From Streptococcus suis (GTDB taxonomy: Bacteria > Bacillota > Bacilli > Lactobacillales > Streptococcaceae), in contig NZ_CP082205.1 in the NCBI RefSeq assembly GCF_019856455.1, positions 1,426,001 through 1,490,000 on the forward strand: 64,000 nucleotides of DNA. The letters run 5' to 3'. The notes below the pieces were generated by a model. That model was given only the letters and a program-made list of their open reading frames with translations, had not been told where the DNA came from and did not search any database. A program made the position numbers and the translations under genes. This document shows positions 39,026-63,814 of this stretch, piece by piece (within the stretch, counting starts at the first letter, position 1; each line of letters starts with the position of its first letter).

Positions 39026-39175
39026 CAACACTTCCTCTTTCGTAAGTAGATTGTTAACTATCATATCATATTTTTGACAAAATACAAGACAATATCCACA
39101 AAAAATGAACATTATTCTTATTAGATAATTTCAAGTGCAAGAAAAAAAAGAACGATTTTCATCGTTCTTGCCATA

Positions 39176-39263
39176 CGGAAGACATGGGATTCGAACCCAC
39201 GCACGCTGTTACACGCCTACCGCGTTTCCAACACGGCCTCTTGAGCCTCTTGAGTAATCTTCC
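39176..39263 (-). tRNA. tRNA-Ser (anticodon GGA)
   Basis: Minus strand, 88 nt. Acceptor GGAAGAT pairs with its 3' partner ending TCTTCC plus discriminator G; the anticodon stem CCGTG/CGCGG encloses TTGGAAA, giving GGA; a long variable arm (TAGGCGTGTAACAGCG) marks a serine tRNA; the T arm holds GGTTCGAATCC. CCA is not encoded. The element to its right adjoins the 5' end, so this is not a classic 3'-end integration site. Confidence 0.95.
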
Positions 39264-39808
39264 ATATATGGAGCTGGTGGGAGTTTTCAAAGTGTTTTCA
39301 AAACAGTTGTTTCAAGAATTGTTTCCACACTTTGGTTATCACTCTATAATTATTGTAACATAAAACTCCTGATTTAGTCAATACATTTTTGAGAATACCT
39401 ACTGGATTAGGTGTTCTTTTTATTCGCTTTTTGTGTATTTTTACACCATATTGACACCTTCAAAAATTTCAAAAAGGGAAAATTGTGCACGGAAGAGGGC
39501 GGCGTTGTGGAACCACGAACGAACCATGCCCCGTTCAAAAAAGTTGGGGGTATTTACGAATTTTATCGTCATCCCGCTCCCTTTATCGTCTGCTAGCGTT
39601 GTTTTAGGTTTACGTTATAATTGACAGAATAACATAAAAAACAGCTCAAACGCTTGATATTATGCGTTTTATTGCGTCAACCTGACAAACTTTCTACCAT
39701 TTAAAGCCAAAAAAATAAACCTATCCAAAAAGATAGATAGGTTTGACGCTTGTTTTTGATACTGTTCTGAGCGATTAAAAAATATTTTAAATTTTTTTAT
39801 AAAAATGC
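39264..39808. other. 545 bp without a supported gene, at the edge of the accessory strip
   Basis: The first 100 bp are AT-rich, with GTTTTCAAA repeated twice. From 39480 the base composition changes to a more GC-rich stretch (to about 39600) with no convincing frame; two overlapping 61-63 codon frames lack ribosome-binding sites. A hairpin AAACCTATC/GATAGATAGGTTT lies at about 39717-39745. The left boundary of the integrated DNA probably lies here, but no attachment repeat can be proved from one end. Confidence 0.5.
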
Positions 39809-39837
39809 TTGACATAGTTTTAACACTATGATAAACT
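39809..39837 (+). promoter_or_regulatory. Cassette 1 promoter with palindrome in the spacer
   Basis: TTGACA, a 17-bp spacer, then TAAACT. The spacer region contains CATAGT-TTTAAC-ACTATG (39813-39830), a 6-6-6 inverted repeat positioned to act as an operator. The same promoter recurs almost unchanged at 40346. Confidence 0.75.
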
Positions 39838-39912
39838 TAAACCATCGAAAGGGTGACAGACTTTCGAAATCCCCCGAGATTCTTAATCAAGGGTAGAAAG
39901 GGGGATGAACTT

Positions 39913-40050
39913 ATGGCTAAACATTTGTCTAGGCGGAAACGTTTAGAAAAAGAAAAAGAGCTGAAACGCTCTGAACGGATAAGCTTAGCGATTGCAGTCG
40001 CTCCGATTATCTGTATCGTTCTTGAGTTTGTTATCAAGCTCTTCGCCTAA
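39913..40050 (+). CDS. Small basic membrane peptide, Fst/type I toxin-like
   Basis: 45 residues: a highly charged N-terminal half (SRRKRLEKEKELKRSER) and one hydrophobic helix, ISLAIAVAPIICIVLEFVIK. The helix pattern with API and LE recalls the Fst toxin helix (VIAPIFVGLVLEMI), though the long basic start does not. The leader has a hairpin CGAAAG/CTTTCG (39846-39866), and ATCCCCC (39869-39875) can pair with GGGGGAT (39900-39906), covering the ribosome-binding site. A 9-bp inverted repeat, CAAGGGTAG (39888-39896) and CTACCCTTG (40081-40089), brackets the gene. Function is inferred, not shown. Confidence 0.55.
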   Translation: MAKHLSRRKRLEKEKELKRSERISLAIAVAPIICIVLEFVIKLFA

Positions 40051-40094
40051 GTTTTTTCAGGGCAAGCCGTGAGGCTTTCCCTACCCTTGATAAT

Positions 40095-40123
40095 AGTATA
40101 CCAAAGGAGGTATCAAAATGCAA
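40095..40123 (-). promoter_or_regulatory. Minus-strand promoter facing peptide gene 1
   Basis: TTGCAT, 17 bp, TATACT on the minus strand, just right of the peptide gene. The same TTGCAT-17-TATACT arrangement occurs at 40905-40933 in cassette 2, with a different spacer. It would yield an RNA antisense to the peptide mRNA. The -35 overlaps the ATGCAA start of the next gene, so chance is possible. Confidence 0.45.
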
Positions 40124-40327
40124 GAAAAAAAGCGTAAAGGATACGCAACGCAAGCCCAACAGCGTGAAGCAGATAGACGTTACTATCACGCAAGCGAAGA
40201 GAACAGACAGAAACGTCTATACTTACAAGCAAGAAGCACCGCTAGAAGTTTCATCAAGAAGCGTGCTACGCTTGAAGATTTAGACATGTTGAATGACTTA
40301 ATTTCAGAGGAAAGAAAAAAATTTTAA
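40118..40327 (+). CDS. Small basic protein of cassette 1, unknown function
   Basis: 69 residues, rich in Arg and Lys, predicted helical, with no membrane segment: KRKGYATQAQQREADRRYYHA followed by ARSTARSFIKKRATLEDLDMLNDLI. AAAGGAGG precedes the ATG. By position it matches the ribbon-helix-helix gene of cassette 2 and may likewise bind the operator palindrome of its cassette, but I recognise no domain. It begins MQE like its counterpart. Confidence 0.6.
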   Translation: MQEKKRKGYATQAQQREADRRYYHASEENRQKRLYLQARSTARSFIKKRATLEDLDMLNDLISEERKKF

Positions 40328-40345
40328 AAAAATTTATCTTTTCCC

Positions 40346-40374
40346 TTGACATAGTTTTGACACTATGTTATACT
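40346..40374 (+). promoter_or_regulatory. Second copy of the cassette 1 promoter
   Basis: TTGACA, 17 bp, TATACT. The spacer holds CATAGT-TTTGAC-ACTATG (40350-40367). The segment of about 40 bp matches 39809-39850 at nearly every base, including the downstream TTAAACCAT. It points into the region of the minus-strand RNA that follows. Confidence 0.7.
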
Positions 40375-40390
40375 TAAACCATAAAGAAAT

Positions 40391-40502
40391 AAAAAAAGCT
40401 CCTAACGTGACTAAGATTGGCGTCTGACACGTTAAGAGCTGAACACCCTACTACCAAGTAGCAAGATACTAATATTGTATCATGCGTGCTTGGTCTAGTC
40501 AA
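40391..40502 (-). ncRNA. Convergent small RNA A with its own promoter and terminator
   Basis: Minus strand promoter TTGACT (40497-40502), 17 bp, TACAAT (40474-40479). The predicted RNA starts near 40467, contains a small CTAC/GTAG hairpin, and ends at a terminator: AGCTCTTAACGTG and CACGTTAGGAGCT arms followed by seven T (40391-40440). Length about 75 nt. It is antisense to the 3' region of cassette 1 transcripts. A diverged homologue lies at 41091-41210. Confidence 0.65.
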
Positions 40503-40634
40503 GTACGCTTTTTGCGTACCTGATAAAGCCCTTTGACAACTAAACAGGTACACATGATATACAACAAAATCCCTGACCTTATGCGGTTTCTGAGTGTTTT
40601 AAAAAATTTTTTTTTAAAAATTGCAAAAAAACGC

Positions 40635-40663
40635 TTGACAATTAAACGGCTATGCCGTATAAT
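40635..40663 (+). promoter_or_regulatory. Cassette 2 promoter with palindrome in the spacer
   Basis: TTGACA, a 17-bp spacer, then TATAAT: a near-consensus promoter. ACGGC-TAT-GCCGT (40646-40658) fills the spacer and touches the -10, so a bound protein would exclude polymerase. The palindrome differs in sequence from that of cassette 1, implying a different repressor. Confidence 0.75.
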
Positions 40664-40743
40664 AATCTCGTAAGCTAGTTCAGGAGCTTACAAAACAAAT
40701 CCCCCTGAACGATGCCATGGGTAGAAAGGGGGTGAGGAAACTT

Positions 40744-40860
40744 ATGCGTAGGCGTAAGAAAAAAGAAAAAGAGTTCAACAGCTTATAACTGATTCAGCTA
40801 ATAACGGGAATTATTAACTTAATCATTATTGTTCTAGAACTAATTAAACTCTTCTTCTAA
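40744..40860 (+). pseudogene. Second basic membrane peptide gene, interrupted by an in-frame stop
   Basis: The frame reads MRRRKKKEKEFNSL, TAA, then LIQLITGIINLIIIVLELI and KLFF before the final stop. The basic start and the hydrophobic helix ending in LELIKLFF mirror the peptide of cassette 1. The leader is also conserved: hairpin GTAAGCT/AGCTTAC (40670-40691), ATCCCCC (40699-40705) opposite the GGGGG ribosome-binding site, and GCCATGGGTAGA (40714-40725) facing TCTACCCTTGGC (40890-40901). The stop codon probably disables the peptide, unless it is read through. Confidence 0.55.
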
Positions 40861-40927
40861 TTCCTCAGAGGTTGAGAAAACTCTCAGCCTCTACCCTTGG
40901 CATAAGTATAACATAAGGAGCAGAAAA

Positions 40928-41092
40928 ATGCAAGAACCGAAACGCCCAAGAGGACGACCGCCAACAGGCAGAGAAAGAAACAAGTTACTTAATATACGAG
41001 TAACAGAGGAAGAAAGAAACCAAATAAAACAATCGGCACATAATAACGGTATGACCGTAGCGGATTGGATAGTTTCGAAAATAGAAAAATAA
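40928..41092 (+). CDS. Ribbon-helix-helix DNA-binding protein of cassette 2
   Basis: 54 residues: a basic start with an AT-hook-like RPRGRPPTGR, then the ribbon-helix-helix pattern LLNIRVTEEERNQIKQSAH, helix 2 in NNGMTVADWIVSKIEK. Such Arc/CopG/MobC-type proteins bind palindromes as dimers and act as plasmid copy control, relaxosome or antitoxin repressors. The candidate target is the ACGGC-GCCGT palindrome in the cassette 2 promoter. AAGGAG precedes the ATG. Confidence 0.75.
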   Translation: MQEPKRPRGRPPTGRERNKLLNIRVTEEERNQIKQSAHNNGMTVADWIVSKIEK

Positions 41093-41210
41093 AAAAAGAC
41101 TTGAACGGCTCAAACTTCGACCCTCGAACCGTACCAAGTCCCGTCCCCATACTAATACCAAGGTACTAGCAAGGTATACATAGTATATCATGAAGTACCT
41201 GATTAGTAAA
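41091..41210 (-). ncRNA. Convergent small RNA B with its own promoter and terminator
   Basis: Minus strand promoter TTTACT (41205-41210), 17 bp, TATACT (41182-41187). Predicted start near 41175; the RNA has a CTAGTAC/GTATTAG hairpin with a CTTG loop and ends at a terminator with GACTTGGTACGG opposite CCGTTCAAGTC, followed by seven T (41091-41140). About 85 nt. Layout and several segments match small RNA A. It overlaps the 3' untranslated part of the ribbon-helix-helix transcript. Confidence 0.65.
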
Positions 41211-41229
41211 CCCCATCAGGTACTTTTTT
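41193..41229 (+). terminator. Intrinsic terminator of cassette 2
   Basis: AAGTACCTGAT/ATCAGGTACTT, an 11-bp perfect stem with an 11-nt loop and a T-run. Its stem overlaps the promoter of small RNA B. Confidence 0.85.
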
Positions 41230-41259
41230 AGTACCTCAAAAAAAGAAAGAAGGTACACC

Positions 41260-41685
41260 ATGAAACACTTAACACCCGAACTAATCGCAATGAATGAACG
41301 CATTAAAGCCTTTAATGCAAAACGCCAAGAAAGCTTGAAACCAGCAAAAACAAAAATCAAAGTTGAAACAAGTATCAATCAACACGGCGCCCTAGTTGGT
41401 GATGTGCTTTGCTCAACATGGGGATACGACCAAACCAACTACGATTTTTATAAAGTCATCAAAGTAACAGCCAAAACTATAACAATCGAAAAGTTAAACG
41501 GATACGACAAGGGGACTATTTTAAAAAATAAAAAAACTCAATGCTACATGAGAGACGGTTCAGAATACTGCATCACTTTAAACAGCTATTCCAGCGCATC
41601 ATGTCGTATTGCAGACCGATTCGCGGAAGGAATGTACAAACAAGCAGAAGACGAAATGAACAACCCTTACAGAAGCCAACACTAA
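41260..41685 (+). CDS. Hypothetical accessory protein
   Basis: 141 residues, soluble, basic N-terminal helix (MKHLTPELIAMNERIKAFNAK) followed by a beta-rich part with VGDVLCSTWGYDQTNYDFYKVIKVTAKTITI, a pattern seen in small proteins of streptococcal plasmids and prophages whose function is unknown. GAAGGTAC before the ATG is a weak ribosome-binding site. First of five small genes in the same direction after the cassette 2 terminator. Confidence 0.65.
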   Translation: MKHLTPELIAMNERIKAFNAKRQESLKPAKTKIKVETSINQHGALVGDVLCSTWGYDQTNYDFYKVIKVTAKTITIEKLNGYDKGTILKNKKTQCYMRDGSEYCITLNSYSSASCRIADRFAEGMYKQAEDEMNNPYRSQH

Positions 41686-41704
41686 CATAGAAAGAAGATA
41701 CAAC

Positions 41705-41926
41705 ATGACAAATCTAGAAAACATTAAAGCAAACAATAAATTAATCAAAGAATTAATCTCGCAAGGCTATCGCGTTGCGTGGAATCAAGAAACAAATGAG
41801 ACTGAAATATTTGCCAAGGTATCTTACAGCGATATCAAACGAGACTGTAACGGATTTGTTACTGGCGACATTTGGCAAAAAGTCGGGCATGTAAACCGAA
41901 ATTTAGCACAAACAATTATTTTGTAG
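41705..41926 (+). CDS. Hypothetical accessory protein
   Basis: 73 residues, soluble, helix then strands (LIKELISQGYRVAWNQETNETEIF). No domain recognised. GAAAGAAG is the only ribosome-binding candidate. It follows the previous gene by 19 bp and is itself followed by the first copy of a repeated hairpin spacer. Confidence 0.55.
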   Translation: MTNLENIKANNKLIKELISQGYRVAWNQETNETEIFAKVSYSDIKRDCNGFVTGDIWQKVGHVNRNLAQTIIL

Positions 41927-41946
41927 TTTGAAACGGTGACAGAATA

Positions 41947-41992
41947 GACAAATACAGAGCCGTCTACACGGCGGCTCAATTTATCAAAAAAA
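41947..41992. repeat. Repeated hairpin spacer, copy 1
   Basis: GACAAATACAGAGCC, the stem GAGCCG/CGGCTC, then AATTTATCAAAAAAA. It recurs at 42251-42297 with three or four changes, one of them in the loop (TCTACACGG versus TCTATACGG), ahead of the next gene. Confidence 0.75.
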
Positions 41993-42004
41993 GGAGTTAG
42001 TAAC

Positions 42005-42241
42005 ATGAGACAATTATCAGGATTGTATATCAACCATAAACAAGAAAACTACTGCATCCTATCTGATGCAGATACAGCCAGAGCCATCAAAAAACGTTGC
42101 AAAGGAAGTGAAGAAATCCCGAAAATTCTTCACTTCGGCAACTGCGATGTTGAGCTATTTGAGGTTGACTCCGCTGAGTTATCTCAAAGAATCATGGCTC
42201 TTGAGAATCAATTTTACGAAGATATAACAAAATACAACTAA
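42005..42241 (+). CDS. Hypothetical accessory protein
   Basis: 78 residues, soluble, mixed alpha-beta (LSGLYINHKQENYCILSD, then KILHFGNCDVELFEVDSAEL). No family recognised. AAGGAG precedes the ATG. It lies between the two copies of the hairpin spacer, suggesting that each spacer tunes expression of the gene after it. Confidence 0.6.
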   Translation: MRQLSGLYINHKQENYCILSDADTARAIKKRCKGSEEIPKILHFGNCDVELFEVDSAELSQRIMALENQFYEDITKYN

Positions 42242-42250
42242 ACAGAGAAC

Positions 42251-42297
42251 AGACAAATCCAGAGCCGTCTATACGGCGGCTCAATTTATCAAAAAAA
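42251..42297. repeat. Repeated hairpin spacer, copy 2
   Basis: Second copy of the spacer at 41947; the 6-bp stem GAGCCG/CGGCTC and the following AATTTATC are identical. Confidence 0.75.
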
Positions 42298-42313
42298 GAA
42301 AGAGGTAAATATA

Positions 42314-42589
42314 ATGGCAAATTATAAAAAAATTAAACAATTTGAAAATACAGGTATTTTAGTCAGTGATTGGATTACAAACAAAGAAACATTAAAATGT
42401 TTTAACTCAGAAAAACACTGTGTAGCTTACTACTCAGAAACTTTCAGAGGGGACACCACACACTACTACAAAATCGTACCCAAAGATCGGTTAAGTAGCA
42501 ACGGCTTTGAATTTGTCAGTGAACTACCAACACCTGCGGACCAAGACGCTATTTATAAACTAATCGACAAACATTATAACCATCGCTAA
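42314..42589 (+). CDS. Hypothetical accessory protein
   Basis: 91 residues, soluble, with Cys and aromatic residues (KHCVAYYSETFRGDTTHYYKIVPKD). No known domain. GAAAGAGG precedes the ATG. Its expression may depend on the hairpin spacer directly upstream. Confidence 0.6.
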   Translation: MANYKKIKQFENTGILVSDWITNKETLKCFNSEKHCVAYYSETFRGDTTHYYKIVPKDRLSSNGFEFVSELPTPADQDAIYKLIDKHYNHR

Positions 42590-42615
42590 TTTTAAACATA
42601 GAAAGAGGCAAAAAC

Positions 42616-42765
42616 ATGGAACAACTAACCAAGCAATTTGAAGCAATCGTATCACGTTATCACGAAAGTGATGGCGACCGAAACAACCTCGAAACGCTCA
42701 AGACTGACATTCAGGACTTACTTGGAAACATCACACTATACTACCCGATGAACTTACCGTTTTAA
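42616..42765 (+). CDS. Small hypothetical protein
   Basis: 49 residues, acidic and helical (MEQLTKQFEAIVSRYHESDG ... DIQDLLGNITLYYP). GAAAGAGG precedes the ATG with the same spacing as in the neighbours. Last gene of the series; a terminator begins at its stop codon. Function unknown. Confidence 0.55.
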   Translation: MEQLTKQFEAIVSRYHESDGDRNNLETLKTDIQDLLGNITLYYPMNLPF

Positions 42766-42790
42766 CTCTAGCAAACCGCTAGGGTTTTTA
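42764..42790 (+). terminator. Terminator of the small-gene series
   Basis: CTAGC/GCTAG stem flanked by AACT and GGTT, then TTTTT. Confidence 0.65.
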
Positions 42791-43103
42791 CTTTAATACA
42801 TAACCATTCTGAAAACGTCCTTATTTTGCGTTTTTAGGCACTTTATAGCACTCTGGTGCATTTACCCTACCAGGCAATTAAAACGCTATACAGGATAATT
42901 CTGAGCCACTAGGCAATATAAAACAAAAACACCCCCAGCAATCGCTGAGGGGTTTTGCTGTTTTGCACGTTTTGAGCAAATAGAAATCAATTCTAGCAAC
43001 CATTGTCGGCAAAAAACGGCAATTTTTAAAAACGTTCGAGATAAAAGTAAGTATTTTTCTATCAAATTTTGAAAAAACGCTATTTTTTTGAAATTCGGGT
43101 AAC
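42791..43103. other. About 310 bp without genes, with a bidirectional terminator
   Basis: A hairpin CCCCCAGC-AATC-GCTGAGGGG (42932-42952) with T-rich flanks on both strands could stop transcription from either side. Nothing else is evident; the rest is AT-rich and non-coding. It separates the plus-strand small genes from the minus-strand nuclease gene. Confidence 0.6.
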
Positions 43104-43134
43104 AAAAAAAAGCCCCAGCAAACGCTGAGGGGCT
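43104..43134 (-). terminator. Terminator after the PBECR4-like gene
   Basis: Minus strand AGCCCCTCAGC-GTTT-GCTGGGGCT followed by eight T, starting within the stop codon. Its sequence resembles the hairpin at 42932. Confidence 0.85.
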
Positions 43135-43648
43135 ACAACCAAACTATATCTGTTATTTTTGTTTTTCTAACTCTAGTATATTTTCTAGCCGAAGATTCAT
43201 GGAGTGTAACTAATCTATAAAATCCGCTCTTATCTCTTCTTAAGCCTAAAACCTTTACATTACGATTATCTCCCTCAAAGAAAACCAAGTCAAGATTCAT
43301 GCTATTCTTTGACAAATCTTTTCTAATGACGCAATATTCCGTCGCCTGCTTCATAAAAATTTCGGCGATAAATGGGTATAAGGCAACTCTACGAGTTACT
43401 TCTCTATAACTTGGCAAACTCTTAAAATCGGACAAATTAAATTTTCCGCTTTCAATCTGCGACAACGTCCGACTAGCATAGTCACTTGTTATTTTGTGCA
43501 AACCGAAAAGATGGTGCAAATCCGTCGCTTGAAAATGTACAATGAGGTTTGTTAAGTCACTATAATTAGTGGATACTTGGCATGATTTTCCGACAAAATT
43601 TTTCCGATAATCTTTAACAAGTTCTCTTAATTCCACACAAGACTCCAT
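43133..43648 (-). CDS. PBECR4-like phage nuclease domain protein
   Basis: 171 residues from the ATG at 43648 (a TTG at 43681 lies inside a terminator stem). The C-terminal part, LVFFEGDNRNVKVLGLRR then FYRLVTLHES, fits the PBECR4 group of the Barnase-EndoU-ColicinE5/D-RelE nuclease fold, which is found in phage proteins; the N-terminal part is helical (LIVHFQATDLHHLFGL). The likely role is an RNase-type toxin or host-takeover factor. There is no good ribosome-binding site, so expression may depend on read-through or be very low. Confidence 0.6.
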   Translation of the reverse strand: MESCVELRELVKDYRKNFVGKSCQVSTNYSDLTNLIVHFQATDLHHLFGLHKITSDYASRTLSQIESGKFNLSDFKSLPSYREVTRRVALYPFIAEIFMKQATEYCVIRKDLSKNSMNLDLVFFEGDNRNVKVLGLRRDKSGFYRLVTLHESSARKYTRVRKTKITDIVWL

Positions 43649-43652
43649 TATA

Positions 43653-43912
43653 AAAATAAAAAAGCGCTGAGCAAGTTTCAACCCTTGCTCAGGTTAACGA
43701 TTAGTGGTGGCAAGTCACTAACTCCCCTTAGTGCTTCTTAGGCTTATCACCAGGGAACAGTTTTAAAGCTCTGCCAAGCCATATAGAGCGCTTCACTATA
43801 TGTCTGTGTCACCACAGATAAAGCCGAGATGGTTAGAAAGGAGGTGATGAACGGAATTTCATCTATTTTCTTAACCACGTACATTATTTCACAACTTATC
43901 ATAACTTGTCAA
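43653..43912 (-). ncRNA. Antisense RNA over the 29-residue peptide gene
   Basis: Minus strand promoter TTGACA (43907-43912), 18 bp, AATAAT (43883-43888). Transcription from about 43876 would cross the ribosome-binding site and start of the plus-strand peptide gene and end at a strong terminator, CTGAGCAAG/CTTGCTCAG with a T-rich tail (43653-43692). RNA of about 220 nt. It matches the antitoxin RNA of type I systems in layout; the RNA itself is a prediction. Confidence 0.6.
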
Positions 43913-43936
43913 GAAAAATCTCGCAACCATTATTGA
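43847..43936 (+). CDS. 29-residue hydrophobic peptide, holin-like type I toxin candidate
   Basis: MNGISSIFLTTYIISQLIIT followed by CQEKSRNHY: a single membrane helix with a charged C terminus, the shape of the holin-like toxin (Hol_Tox/TxpA) peptides of Firmicutes prophages. An almost perfect AGAAAGGAGGTGAT ribosome-binding site precedes it, as is typical of that family. A minus-strand RNA covers its start. The sense promoter was not found with confidence. Confidence 0.55.
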   Translation: MNGISSIFLTTYIISQLIITCQEKSRNHY

Positions 43937-44058
43937 CAAAATGGCTATTTTGTCAATAATACACATGATATATTTATTTTCCATGTGCGAATCGAAATCA
44001 TGCAAACCGTTGATACGACTGCGTTTGTCTATTTTCCAAGCAAATTCCATGTGCGAAT
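43930..44058. repeat. 13-bp palindrome and 14-bp direct repeats
   Basis: TTATTGACAAAAT-GGCT-ATTTTGTCAATAA (43930-43959) is a perfect 13-bp inverted repeat. Downstream, TTCCATGTGCGAAT occurs twice (43979-43992 and 44045-44058), 66 bp apart. No gene lies here. These may be protein-binding sites or part of an attachment region at the lysis end of the prophage. Confidence 0.6.
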
Positions 44059-44089
44059 TAATGTGCGGTTCCATTCTATTTCAGCAAAC

Positions 44090-44116
44090 AAAAAAAGCCC
44101 AGCAGACCGCTGGGTT
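44090..44116 (-). terminator. Terminator of the phage late operon
   Basis: Minus strand CCCAGCG-GTCT-GCTGGGC followed by seven T, just after the endolysin stop. Confidence 0.88.
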
Positions 44117-63724: not shown

Positions 63725-63814
63725 AGGAGAGTGTGGGATTCGAACCCACGGACCGCACGTAGGCGGCCACCCGTCTAGCAAACGAGCGCATTCGACCAAC
63801 TCTGCCAACTCTCC
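63725..63814 (-). tRNA. Phage-encoded tRNA-Ser (anticodon GCT)
   Basis: 90 nt. Acceptor GGAGAGT/ACTCTCC, D stem GCA/TGC, anticodon arm CTCGT-TTGCTAG-ACGGG giving GCT, long variable arm GGCCGCCTACGTGCGGTC, T arm GTGGG-TTCGAAT-CCCAC. All stems close. The discriminator base reads T rather than the usual serine G, and CCA is not encoded. It lies inside the late operon between the regulator and terS. Confidence 0.88.

Follow-up and report, generated by a model that had tools for sequence, protein, structure and literature searches.

Two tandem cassettes within a prophage

Is a phage unit that joins a short hydrophobic peptide, a small DNA-binding-type protein and predicted antisense RNAs a toxin-antitoxin locus, a plasmid relic or a device controlling other genes? 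Positions 39809-41229 of the window (the whole 64,000-nucleotide stretch of Streptococcus suis DNA analysed here) hold two tandem cassettes, diverged from each other, within a prophage nearest Streptococcus suis phages (Table 1). All parts named in the preliminary description are in place; it overlooked a second promoter (P2), two plus-strand terminators at 40484-40508 and 41193-41225 and a predicted nested minus-strand RNA (asRNA1), and did not mention that a series of small genes follows the unit. Each cassette follows one plan: an operator palindrome in the promoter, a peptide gene with a sequestered ribosome site, a bracketing repeat and a regulator starting MQE. The parts, their recurrence, the excess folding, the agreement of operators inside a cassette, the joint exchange of regulator and operator and the homology of MQE1 with the C-terminal part of PDB chain 'A32' are evident at the level of sequence. 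From these features, each cassette is probably a phage control unit composed of an autorepressor, a plasmid-type antisense attenuator before small genes, and a silenced hydrophobic peptide.

The plan is also present in 5 named phages and in at least 15 differently named IMG/VR contigs (a lower bound, some contigs possibly being the same phages as the named ones), with one triplicate occurrence. Conservation of the whole unit elsewhere, proposed earlier as a check, is thus found in related phages and viral contigs, and the view of a conserved plan under diverging sequences is supported. A strict leader pattern, which fits the cassette 1 form only, reports 1/284 Streptococcus genomes, the genome of origin itself. 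A loose leader pattern returns at least 120 stretches, most of them devoid of a cassette according to the cassette detector. Seven terminator-like sites are observed against 1.2 (sd 1.3) in shuffles, and seven promoters against 3.8 (sd 2.0), a modest excess. A plasmid origin was considered and rejected, as positions 39700-41300 do not match any plasmid record.

Table 1. Coordinates of the cassette features and of the genes that follow them
Feature	Position	Strand	Remarks
Cassette 1 P1	39809..39837	+	TTGACA-17-TAAACT, operator dyad inside the 17-nt spacer
Cassette 1 leader hairpin of mRNA	39845..39867	+	read by eye
Cassette 1 anti-SD/SD helix	39871..39904	+	CCCCC (39871-39875) / GGGGG (39900-39904); loop holds LR5' (39886-39896)
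Peptide 1, 45 aa	39913..40050	+	basic N-terminus, then hydrophobic helix; both strands fold strongly
Cassette 1 asRNA1, ~138 nt, predicted	39951..40088	-	extended -10 40103-40095, terminator 39972-39957
Cassette 1 intercistronic hairpin, then LR3'	40060..40091	+	LR3' (40081-40091) pairs with LR5'
MQE1, 69 aa	40118..40327	+	phrog_2277 / Aca13-type regulator
Cassette 1 P2	40346..40374	+	nearly the P1 operator, 2/17 spacer positions different
Cassette 1 asRNA2, ctRNA-like, ~76 nt	40392..40467	-	promoter 40502-40474; sense-strand UUGGCG loop
Cassette 1 predicted antiterminator segment	40452..40463	+	pairs with 5' arm of + terminator
Cassette 1 intrinsic terminator (attenuator)	40484..40513	+	
Cassette 2 P1	40635..40663	+	TTGACA-17-TATAAT, spacer dyad unlike that of cassette 1
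Cassette 2 leader hairpin, anti-SD/SD helix, LR5'	40670..40732	+	hairpin 40670-40691 (by eye); LR5' 40714-40725
Cassette 2 CCCCC/GGGGG	40701-40705/40728-40732	+	anti-SD/SD
Peptide 2, 14 aa after in-frame stop	40744..40788	+	truncated in this genome
Cassette 2 asRNA1, predicted	40764..40898	-	strongly folded, z -5.9
Cassette 2 LR3'	40890..40901	+	pairs with LR5' 40714-40725, one mismatch
MQE2, 54 aa	40928..41092	+	AT-hook-like tail and ribbon-helix-helix domain (NikA-like)
Cassette 2 asRNA2, ~83 nt	41093..41175	-	promoter 41210-41182
Cassette 2 predicted antiterminator segment	41149..41168	+	
Cassette 2 terminator (attenuator)	41193..41229	+	ahead of small-ORF run
Small-ORF run (141, 73, 78, 91 aa)	41260..42589	+	presumed regulated cargo

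Operators and exchangeable regulators

Both cassettes possess the strong promoter with a palindrome in its spacer seen earlier. Within a cassette, the P1 and P2 spacers differ at 2.5 positions on average (13 pairs), and spacers of cassettes with different MQE proteins at 10.6 (0/20000 permutations). The P2 operator matches that of P1 in 11/13 pairs, the remaining two being promoters of the next cassette. P2 is absent in 9/22 cassette rows, window cassette 2 among them, and read-through from P1 would have to do the work there. A similar spacer dyad lies near the gene in 9/17 loci with MQE1 or a relative, including GBS, S. uberis, S. salivarius, S. equinus and Listeria phages; the same scan reports no similar dyad at L007, L008, L151, L155, L156 and L158, and one present in part only at L011. 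The MQE protein is therefore likely to repress its own promoter through the spacer operator, as judged from these dyads.

A small MQE protein is found in each cassette as first described, with kinship limited to the first residues, since one is Aca13-like and the other a ribbon-helix-helix protein. The MQE1 profile (residues 12-67) matches PDB 8ye6_B, named 'A32' (residues 89-141, E 4e-14). From its name, its length and PMC8934645, which describes AcrIIA32 as a fusion with Aca13, we infer that 'A32' is AcrIIA32 and that the matched part is Aca13. The MQE1 model does not return any PDB match in the fold search, and it has one BFVD match below E 0.001, of unknown function. Relatives of MQE1 occur in 5/98 genomes, its own included, and the genome-wide scan for them reports 5 loci. 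MQE2 is assigned the Pfam NikA-like family (37.5 bits against a cut-off of 27), and its model resembles Arc, CopG and NikA (Foldseek probability near 1, but E 0.16-0.5); it does not match the phage collection at E 0.1. Judged by these comparisons, the regulators are swappable among units, the regulator being exchanged together with its operator.

A predicted plasmid-type attenuator ahead of small genes

The second predicted minus-strand RNA, asRNA2, was compared in 17 distinct forms from 22 cassettes, the 17 units being related. In 17/17 forms, the promoter is of the sigma-70 type and has TG preceding the -10, and the folds compared exhibit a 5' hairpin and a second, mostly longer hairpin, followed by a U-rich tract (fold z -4.8 and -5.1 for the two window forms). 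UUGGCG hairpin loops, as carried by the loop-loop plasmid regulators that PMC3753616 employs, are found in 12/17 forms and a pT181-type loop in 4/17, hence 16/17 with a plasmid-type loop; the asRNA2 of window cassette 2 is the sole form with neither. Rfam ctRNA_pT181 is reported at relaxed thresholds in 4/11 scanned loci (L006, 46.1 bits; L107, 40.7; L020, 39.6; L019, 33.9) against a cut-off of 56 bits, every ctRNA match falling below its curated cut-off, and the scan lists no ctRNA family in the other 7/11 loci. The best Rfam match of window cassette 1 is ctRNA_pND324 (24.3 bits, cut-off 45, E 0.89).

In 17/17 leaders, a segment within the asRNA2 target pairs in silico with the 5' arm of the plus-strand terminator. 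These arms comprise four sequences, and each duplex exceeds in strength the average of its shuffled versions. Taken one at a time, the antiterminators often do not stand out, being equalled by 0 to 59 of 300 shuffled leaders (59/300 for window cassette 1, 7/300 for window cassette 2). Taken together, asRNA2 resembles plasmid copy-control RNAs and lies opposite a leader predicted to form an antiterminator or a terminator, with small genes beyond it. The convergent minus-strand RNA of the preliminary description has its promoters in both cassettes and does not overlap the peptide gene; the predicted nested asRNA1 does.

Could these be segments of plasmid copy control that recombination brought in and that persist without present function? 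The ctRNA-like loops occur with no rep gene recognised (no Rep domain among the downstream ORFs tested), the peptide of window cassette 2 is truncated and P2 is dispensed with in many rows, all of which would fit such a relic. That operators agree inside a cassette, that antiterminator and bracket pairs change, and that regulators are repeatedly swapped along with their operators argues instead for upkeep, and makes a relic very unlikely.

The downstream ORFs do not contain any recognised anti-CRISPR gene; there is one weak AcrIIA4-family match (E 0.055), and no known Acr is recognised. One family model reports no Cas9 in this genome. Among 110 S. suis genomes, PMC12813430 places 5/167 anti-defence systems inside prophages. 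Because the regulator is of the Aca13 type, anti-defence cargo would be the most likely purpose of the unit, and the downstream ORFs are candidates for such a function.

The peptide gene and its predicted nested antisense RNA

The features seen earlier upstream of the peptide gene, a leader hairpin and a CCCCC run opposite the GGGGG ribosome-binding site, were located in both cassettes. Both pairs of the inverted repeat bracketing the gene were also found, and their pairing exceeds in length that of shuffled sequences: the sum for 9 cassette rows is 71 against a shuffle mean of 45.4, with 0/2000 shuffles reaching 71 (the SD helix of L021, where a later G-run is present, was read by eye). Covariation of the bracket is partial (matched mean 8.2, mismatched 6.6), the motif being common to some types.

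The basic membrane peptide expected in each cassette stands in cassette 1 (45 residues), whereas that of cassette 2 ends after 14 residues at an in-frame stop; intact cassette-2 versions are present in phi30c and phi5218. Across 8 types, the basic start and the hydrophobic helix are kept. Only the comparison of type A with A0 gives a clear sign of coding selection (pN/pS of pA/pA0 0.19 and 0.27); the other usable pairs give 0.15 (the near-identical pA pair), 0.57 (pB/pC) and 0.71 (pC/pG), four pairs out of register by at least one codon having been left out and two identical D sequences being uninformative. Searches of Pfam, NCBIfam and PHROG with peptide 1 return nothing at E<=1, so that the Fst-like character of its helix finds no backing and Fst membership, judged by whether any model of a known toxin family matches, is rejected. 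The phage collection returns 15-residue fragments in 2 records and nothing longer.

Of the two cassettes of the window, the second counts against the best explanation, with its broken peptide and its lack of a canonical loop.

Compared with synonymous recodings, the peptide ORF folds better both as mRNA (z -1.5 to -5.2, 9 rows) and as the antisense strand (z -2.7 to -6.6, 9 rows). The same comparison reports no excess folding for ten MQE and downstream ORFs, one excepted, nor for the GBS peptide, and the hairpin trait is therefore not general among Aca13-linked peptides. An extended -10 lies on the minus strand at a fixed place in 25/25 cassettes. The asRNA1 terminator scores are reached by 27, 82, 19, 88, 0, 8, 7 and 400 of 400 recodings, and taken alone these terminators are weakly supported; type F has none by the rule applied, and an independent terminator scan lists only that of cassette 1. 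The peptide gene is thus folded far beyond coding needs and conceals the predicted asRNA1, the layout of which resembles that of a type I antitoxin. Such a peptide would be expected to act as a type I-like membrane toxin or as a membrane effector, freed upon loss of control.

In ColIb-P9-type plasmids, repY and a pseudoknot control repZ. The peptide could likewise be a leader ORF, its translation and the pseudoknot-like long-range pairing controlling translation of the MQE gene rather than yielding an effector. The peptide gene does lie directly ahead of MQE, LR3' stops some 10-15 nt short of the ribosome site of MQE among the sequences compared, the ORF is strongly structured and UUGGCG loops occur in the same locus. 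However, these loops sit at the attenuator, away from the peptide leader, the basic start and hydrophobic helix persist across the 8 types and one type pair has a low pN/pS (0.19-0.27), and other hydrophobic peptides precede the Aca13-like gene in Listeria, GBS and S. equinus phages. We consider this alternative unlikely.

It is also improbable that the locus is a tandem type I toxin-antitoxin (addiction) system, with a peptide toxin, antisense antitoxins, MQE proteins as accessory autoregulators and no control of cargo. Type I traits are present, namely a small basic and hydrophobic peptide, a ribosome site that is locked, pairing over a long range between 5' and 3' sides and a predicted antisense RNA nested in the gene. 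There is a prophage precedent in YonT/SR6, whose antitoxin is described as overlapping both the 3' end of the toxin and the gene after it (PMC5848175). An addiction locus, however, has no need of asRNA2, which does not overlap the peptide gene, or of an antiterminator/terminator pair in the leader, and the peptide lacks a family match to known type I toxins.

Proposed mechanism and significance

For the phage control unit favoured here, we infer the transcripts, binding events, toxicity, timing and cargo role alike. When the phage genome enters a cell, repressor and antisense RNA would be absent, so that P1, and P2 where present, would fire; the leader antiterminator would fold and yield a burst of downstream small-gene expression. 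As the MQE protein builds up, it would close P1 and P2, and asRNA2, made in proportion to genome copies, would bind the leader and sequester the antiterminator, allowing the terminator to form. The unit would be nearly off in the lysogen. Meanwhile, the anti-SD helix would lock the ribosome site and keep the peptide untranslated, the long-range pairing would close this helix into a pseudoknot-like fold, and asRNA1 would cover most of the ORF.

Attenuators of plasmid copy control, autorepressors of the anti-CRISPR type and type I-like peptides are already known singly; the open-access titles and abstract openings searched gave no account of the three combined in a phage. If the scheme is true, a phage would use antisense RNA to gauge how many copies of its genome are present and thereby time accessory genes, and the swapping of regulator and operator under an unchanged peptide would provide orthogonal parts of natural origin. 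With a peptide gene and its predicted antisense RNA within one hairpin, the locus would be a tight case of two-strand coding. More tentatively, streptococcal temperate phages may have rebuilt plasmid copy-number control as an anti-defence timer, in which swappable autorepressors, either Aca13-type or AT-hook plus ribbon-helix-helix, and a pT181-like attenuator count genomes and shut the cargo after its burst, while a hairpin-encoded membrane toxin with its antidote RNA on the opposite strand guards the module.

Comparison with known systems

The likeness to type I toxin-antitoxin and plasmid copy-control loci noted at the outset is borne out by the layout of asRNA1 on the one hand and by the asRNA2 loops and predicted attenuator on the other; the combination of a peptide, a DNA-binding-type protein and antisense RNAs, the latter predicted from sequence, likewise holds. 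At the par/Fst locus of pAD1, the ribosome site of a short membrane peptide is locked, the RNAs converge, and toxin and antitoxin share a bidirectional terminator. The cassettes resemble it in peptide, locked site and convergent RNAs, but no Fst family match or shared bidirectional terminator is seen. TxpA/RatA and BsrG/SR4 are type I systems of Gram-positive prophages. With these and with YonT/SR6, the cassettes share a small hydrophobic peptide, a structured mRNA and a predicted antisense RNA on the 3' side; in contrast, most of their antisense gene falls inside the peptide ORF, the peptide has no sequence family match, and the unit further includes a repressor and another predicted antisense RNA.

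MQE1 is homologous to Aca13, the C-terminal part of AcrIIA32, and shares with it dyad operators in its own promoter. It differs in having no proven adjacent acr gene and in being partnered by a hidden hydrophobic peptide and antisense RNAs. The pT181/pIP501-type attenuators (RF00242, ctRNA_pT181) have in common with asRNA2 a short two-hairpin antisense RNA with a kissing-type loop, facing a leader with a mutually exclusive antiterminator and terminator, predicted in our case. Unlike them, the phage locus stands behind a repressor/peptide unit, has no recognised rep gene downstream and scores below the Rfam cut-off. Lastly, plasmid pMV158 is described with a control circuit of CopG and RNAII (PMC4485353), and as there, a small ribbon-helix-helix repressor (the MQE2 type) and an antisense RNA are predicted to act on one transcript. 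Here, however, RepB is absent, the putative RNA target is attenuation instead of rep translation, and the regulator type is swapped among units.

Prophage setting and recurrence of the cassettes

In the 2.56-Mb chromosome carrying the 64-kb window, ORF reading places a prophage in the right part of the window. Its late genes are on the minus strand: terminase-like genes near 62-63.5 kb, then tail-like genes and finally a lysin at 44.1 kb, to which domain search assigns CHAP and SH3 domains. Phage records matching positions 39300-44100 number 111, every one from Streptococcus and none covering more than 80% of the query length. Among these records, the S. suis phages phi30c and phi5218 carry the cassette island at the same place, and in Javan565, Javan584 and the S. 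anginosus phage Javan64 it adjoins the terminase, again on the opposite strand. Neighboring RNA and protein genes are listed in the table.

A detector requiring a leader, a peptide, the bracket (a long-range inverted repeat around the peptide gene) and an MQE regulator gene was applied to five named phages and to loci from viral-contig scans, L021 being added separately from its sequence. The two tandem cassettes with a repeated plan announced in the preliminary description are real, the plan recurring in the five named phages and in at least 15 IMG/VR contigs, with three cassettes in tandem in L020. Peptides of eight types are combined in many ways with several types of MQE protein; type D is paired with four different regulators and type B with three. 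The cassette is a real, recurrent and unusual unit. Every part has a known counterpart, and their combination did not appear in the titles and abstract openings returned by searches of open-access literature.

Features in the window and in related loci (L-numbers, loci in viral contigs or phages)
Feature	Location	Strand	Remark
tRNA-Ser	window 39175-39264		cassettes (+) lie between it and the lysin
Dyad ACGGTATGACCGT	window 41046-41058		inside MQE2 coding region; resembles operator of MQE2's own promoter (ACGGCTATGCCGT)
PBECR4 (Barnase/EndoU/ColicinE5-like) nuclease-domain protein, phrog_3446	window 43133-43645	-	adjoins island
Bacilli-1 RNA (RF02931)	window 43756-43819	-	score exceeds cut-off (68.7 bits); lysin on one side, island on the other; overlapping matches in phage records of S. 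suis, S. equinus, S. agalactiae, S. dysgalactiae
tRNA-Ser	window 63725-63814	-	beside genes read as terminase; perhaps phage-borne
Complete GOLLD RNA	L005:1187-1577	-	>256 bits; adjoins tRNA genes
Complete GOLLD RNA	L107:2248-2638	-	>256 bits; adjoins tRNA genes
tracrRNA-like RNA, full length (RF02348)	L005:7846-7937	-	59.6 bits, E about 4e-7, cut-off 70; in phage island, downstream of cassettes
tracrRNA-like RNA	L017:6372-6463	-	as L005
tracrRNA-like RNA	L021:6491-6582	-	as L005
110-residue ORF	L005:8056-8388		beside tracrRNA-like RNA; residues 47-105 weakly match PADLOC Csn2, E 0.0028
60-residue acidic protein	L148:1307-1489		S. salivarius phage YMC-2011; replaces peptide before Aca13-like gene, behind same kind of operator; candidate anti-defence protein

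The predicted leader lock and the peptide gene

The two arms of the leader anti-SD/SD helix change in step, being CCCCC/GGGGG in most cassettes and CCCCTT/AAGGGG in type D; L020 has CTCCC/GGGAG and L021, read by eye, CCTCC/GGAGG. The 5' half of the bracket is located in the loop of this helix, and its pairing partner lies immediately upstream of the MQE ribosome site. The inverted repeat described earlier around the peptide gene withstood comparison with shuffles, none of 2000 reaching its summed pairing length, while single rows give p up to 0.09 and the motif is common to several peptide types. A partner involving no more than one G-U pair exists for each of the segments ATCAAGGGTAG, TCAGGGA, TATCAGGAG, GGGTAGA, ATACAAGG and GTAAGGG.

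In 25/25 cassettes, which are not independent of one another, the minus strand has an extended -10 at 14-15 nt upstream of the MQE start. From there, the predicted asRNA1, nested in the peptide gene, would traverse the intercistronic hairpin and then the greater part of the peptide ORF. In 9 of 10 rows it ends at a U-rich tract supplied by lysine-rich codons, the remaining one ending earlier at an internal T-rich run. An independent scan reports this terminator for cassette 1 and not for cassette 2; taken alone, the terminator is the weaker evidence. Measured against synonymous recodings, peptide ORFs show excess folding (mRNA z -1.5 to -5.2; antisense z -2.7 to -6.6), the antisense strand being the more stable in six of nine rows, as compared with z -1.8 to +3.6 (mRNA) and -0.8 to +1.6 (antisense, except one at -3.1) for ten MQE and downstream ORFs. 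Outside the cassette family, Listeria and S. equinus peptides reach antisense z -3.9 and a Fusobacterium peptide z -2.9 (mRNA) and -1.6 (antisense); the GBS peptide shows no excess fold over its recodings.

Regulators and operators

MQE1, the regulator of cassette 1, and its relatives (phrog_2277) align as a family of short basic proteins. With the family profile, search hits chain B of PDB 8ye6, named A32, over residues 89-141 (E 4e-14); name and length suggest AcrIIA32, described in its discovery paper as a fusion with Aca13, one of the three Aca families named there (PMC8934645). The AlphaFold model of MQE1 has two helices (mean pLDDT 88.8, pTM 0.55), and fold search returned no match in the PDB. 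The other MQE proteins share the start MQExKRPRGRP, invariant in 8/8 aligned sequences, which is likened to an AT-hook from a weak HMG-I/Y match (E 0.48), and possess a ribbon-helix-helix domain, which in MQE2, the cassette 2 regulator, is NikA-like by Pfam and resembles Arc, CopG and NikA by Foldseek.

In the 13 distinct cassettes with a good second promoter (P2), its spacer differs from that of the first (P1) at a mean of 2.5 of 17 positions, against 10.6 differences between cassettes with different MQE proteins, and 0/20000 permutations match the within-cassette likeness. Two poor pairs (12 and 6 differences) are explained by a 'P2' that is P1 of the next cassette. P2 is absent in 9/22 rows; the regulators there are all of ribbon-helix-helix types, the types found in Javan584 and Javan64 not among them. 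Cassette 2 of phi30c and cassette 2 of the window have near-identical leaders and one peptide type in common; their regulators and operators differ, the two being exchanged together. The dyad within the MQE2 gene may be a second, internal operator of cassette 2, which is devoid of P2.

Of the 17 loci that encode MQE1 or one of its relatives, nine carry a comparable dyad in a promoter spacer close to that gene (window, L003, S. equinus L147, S. salivarius L148, S. uberis L149, GBS L150, Listeria L153, L157 and L010); the same scan found none in L007, L008, L151, L155, L156 and L158 and part of one in L011, L020 being beyond its threshold. Another small hydrophobic peptide precedes the MQE1-like gene in 5/14 loci outside the cassette family (L147, L150, L153, L010 and L011).

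The predicted second antisense RNA and attenuator

The predicted asRNA2 lies on the minus strand after MQE (and P2), with its own predicted promoter. Its 17 distinct forms among 22 cassettes each have TG ahead of the -10 and fold into a 5' hairpin followed by another that ends in a U-rich tract. The hexamer UUGGCG, the loop that the plasmid regulators of loop-loop type studied in PMC3753616 have in common, makes up a hairpin loop on one strand or the other in 12/17 forms; a pT181-type loop occurs in four, the sole form with neither being that of window cassette 2. A plus-strand terminator follows this region, and in 17/17 units a stretch of the leader inside the asRNA2 target is able to pair with the terminator's 5' arm, one unit adding four pairs further upstream. 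Single duplexes are equalled by 0 to 59 of 300 shuffles, depending on the unit; viewed together, their unchanging position and the four arm sequences argue for selection. Beyond the terminator, most printed units have a conserved GTACCTC...AAAGAAGG stretch and then the first small ORF, and in first units of tandem arrays the next cassette follows.

Presumed downstream cargo

Family and profile searches returned no recognized function for the small ORFs downstream, the best matches being weak: DUF7834 (E 0.003), Csn2 (E 0.0028), Csx1 (E 0.012) and the AcrIIA4 family (E 0.055). One family model found no Cas9 in this genome, and prophages are reported to hold only 5/167 anti-defence systems across 110 S. 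suis genomes (PMC12813430). The tracrRNA-like RNA downstream in three relatives is possibly an RNA decoy against Cas9; its presence there fits an anti-defence island and proves nothing.

Comparison with known systems

Relaxed Rfam scans list ctRNA_pT181 in 4/11 loci (33.9-46.1 bits, under the cut-off of 56) and no ctRNA in the other seven; scanned alone, the window cassettes return ctRNA_pND324 (24.3 bits, E 0.89). By that cut-off the cassette falls outside the pT181 family and, unlike pT181 plasmid control, it comes without rep. Its sequence predicts a mode of action like that of an attenuator in plasmid copy control, combined with an Aca-type autorepressor and with a peptide of type I-like character.
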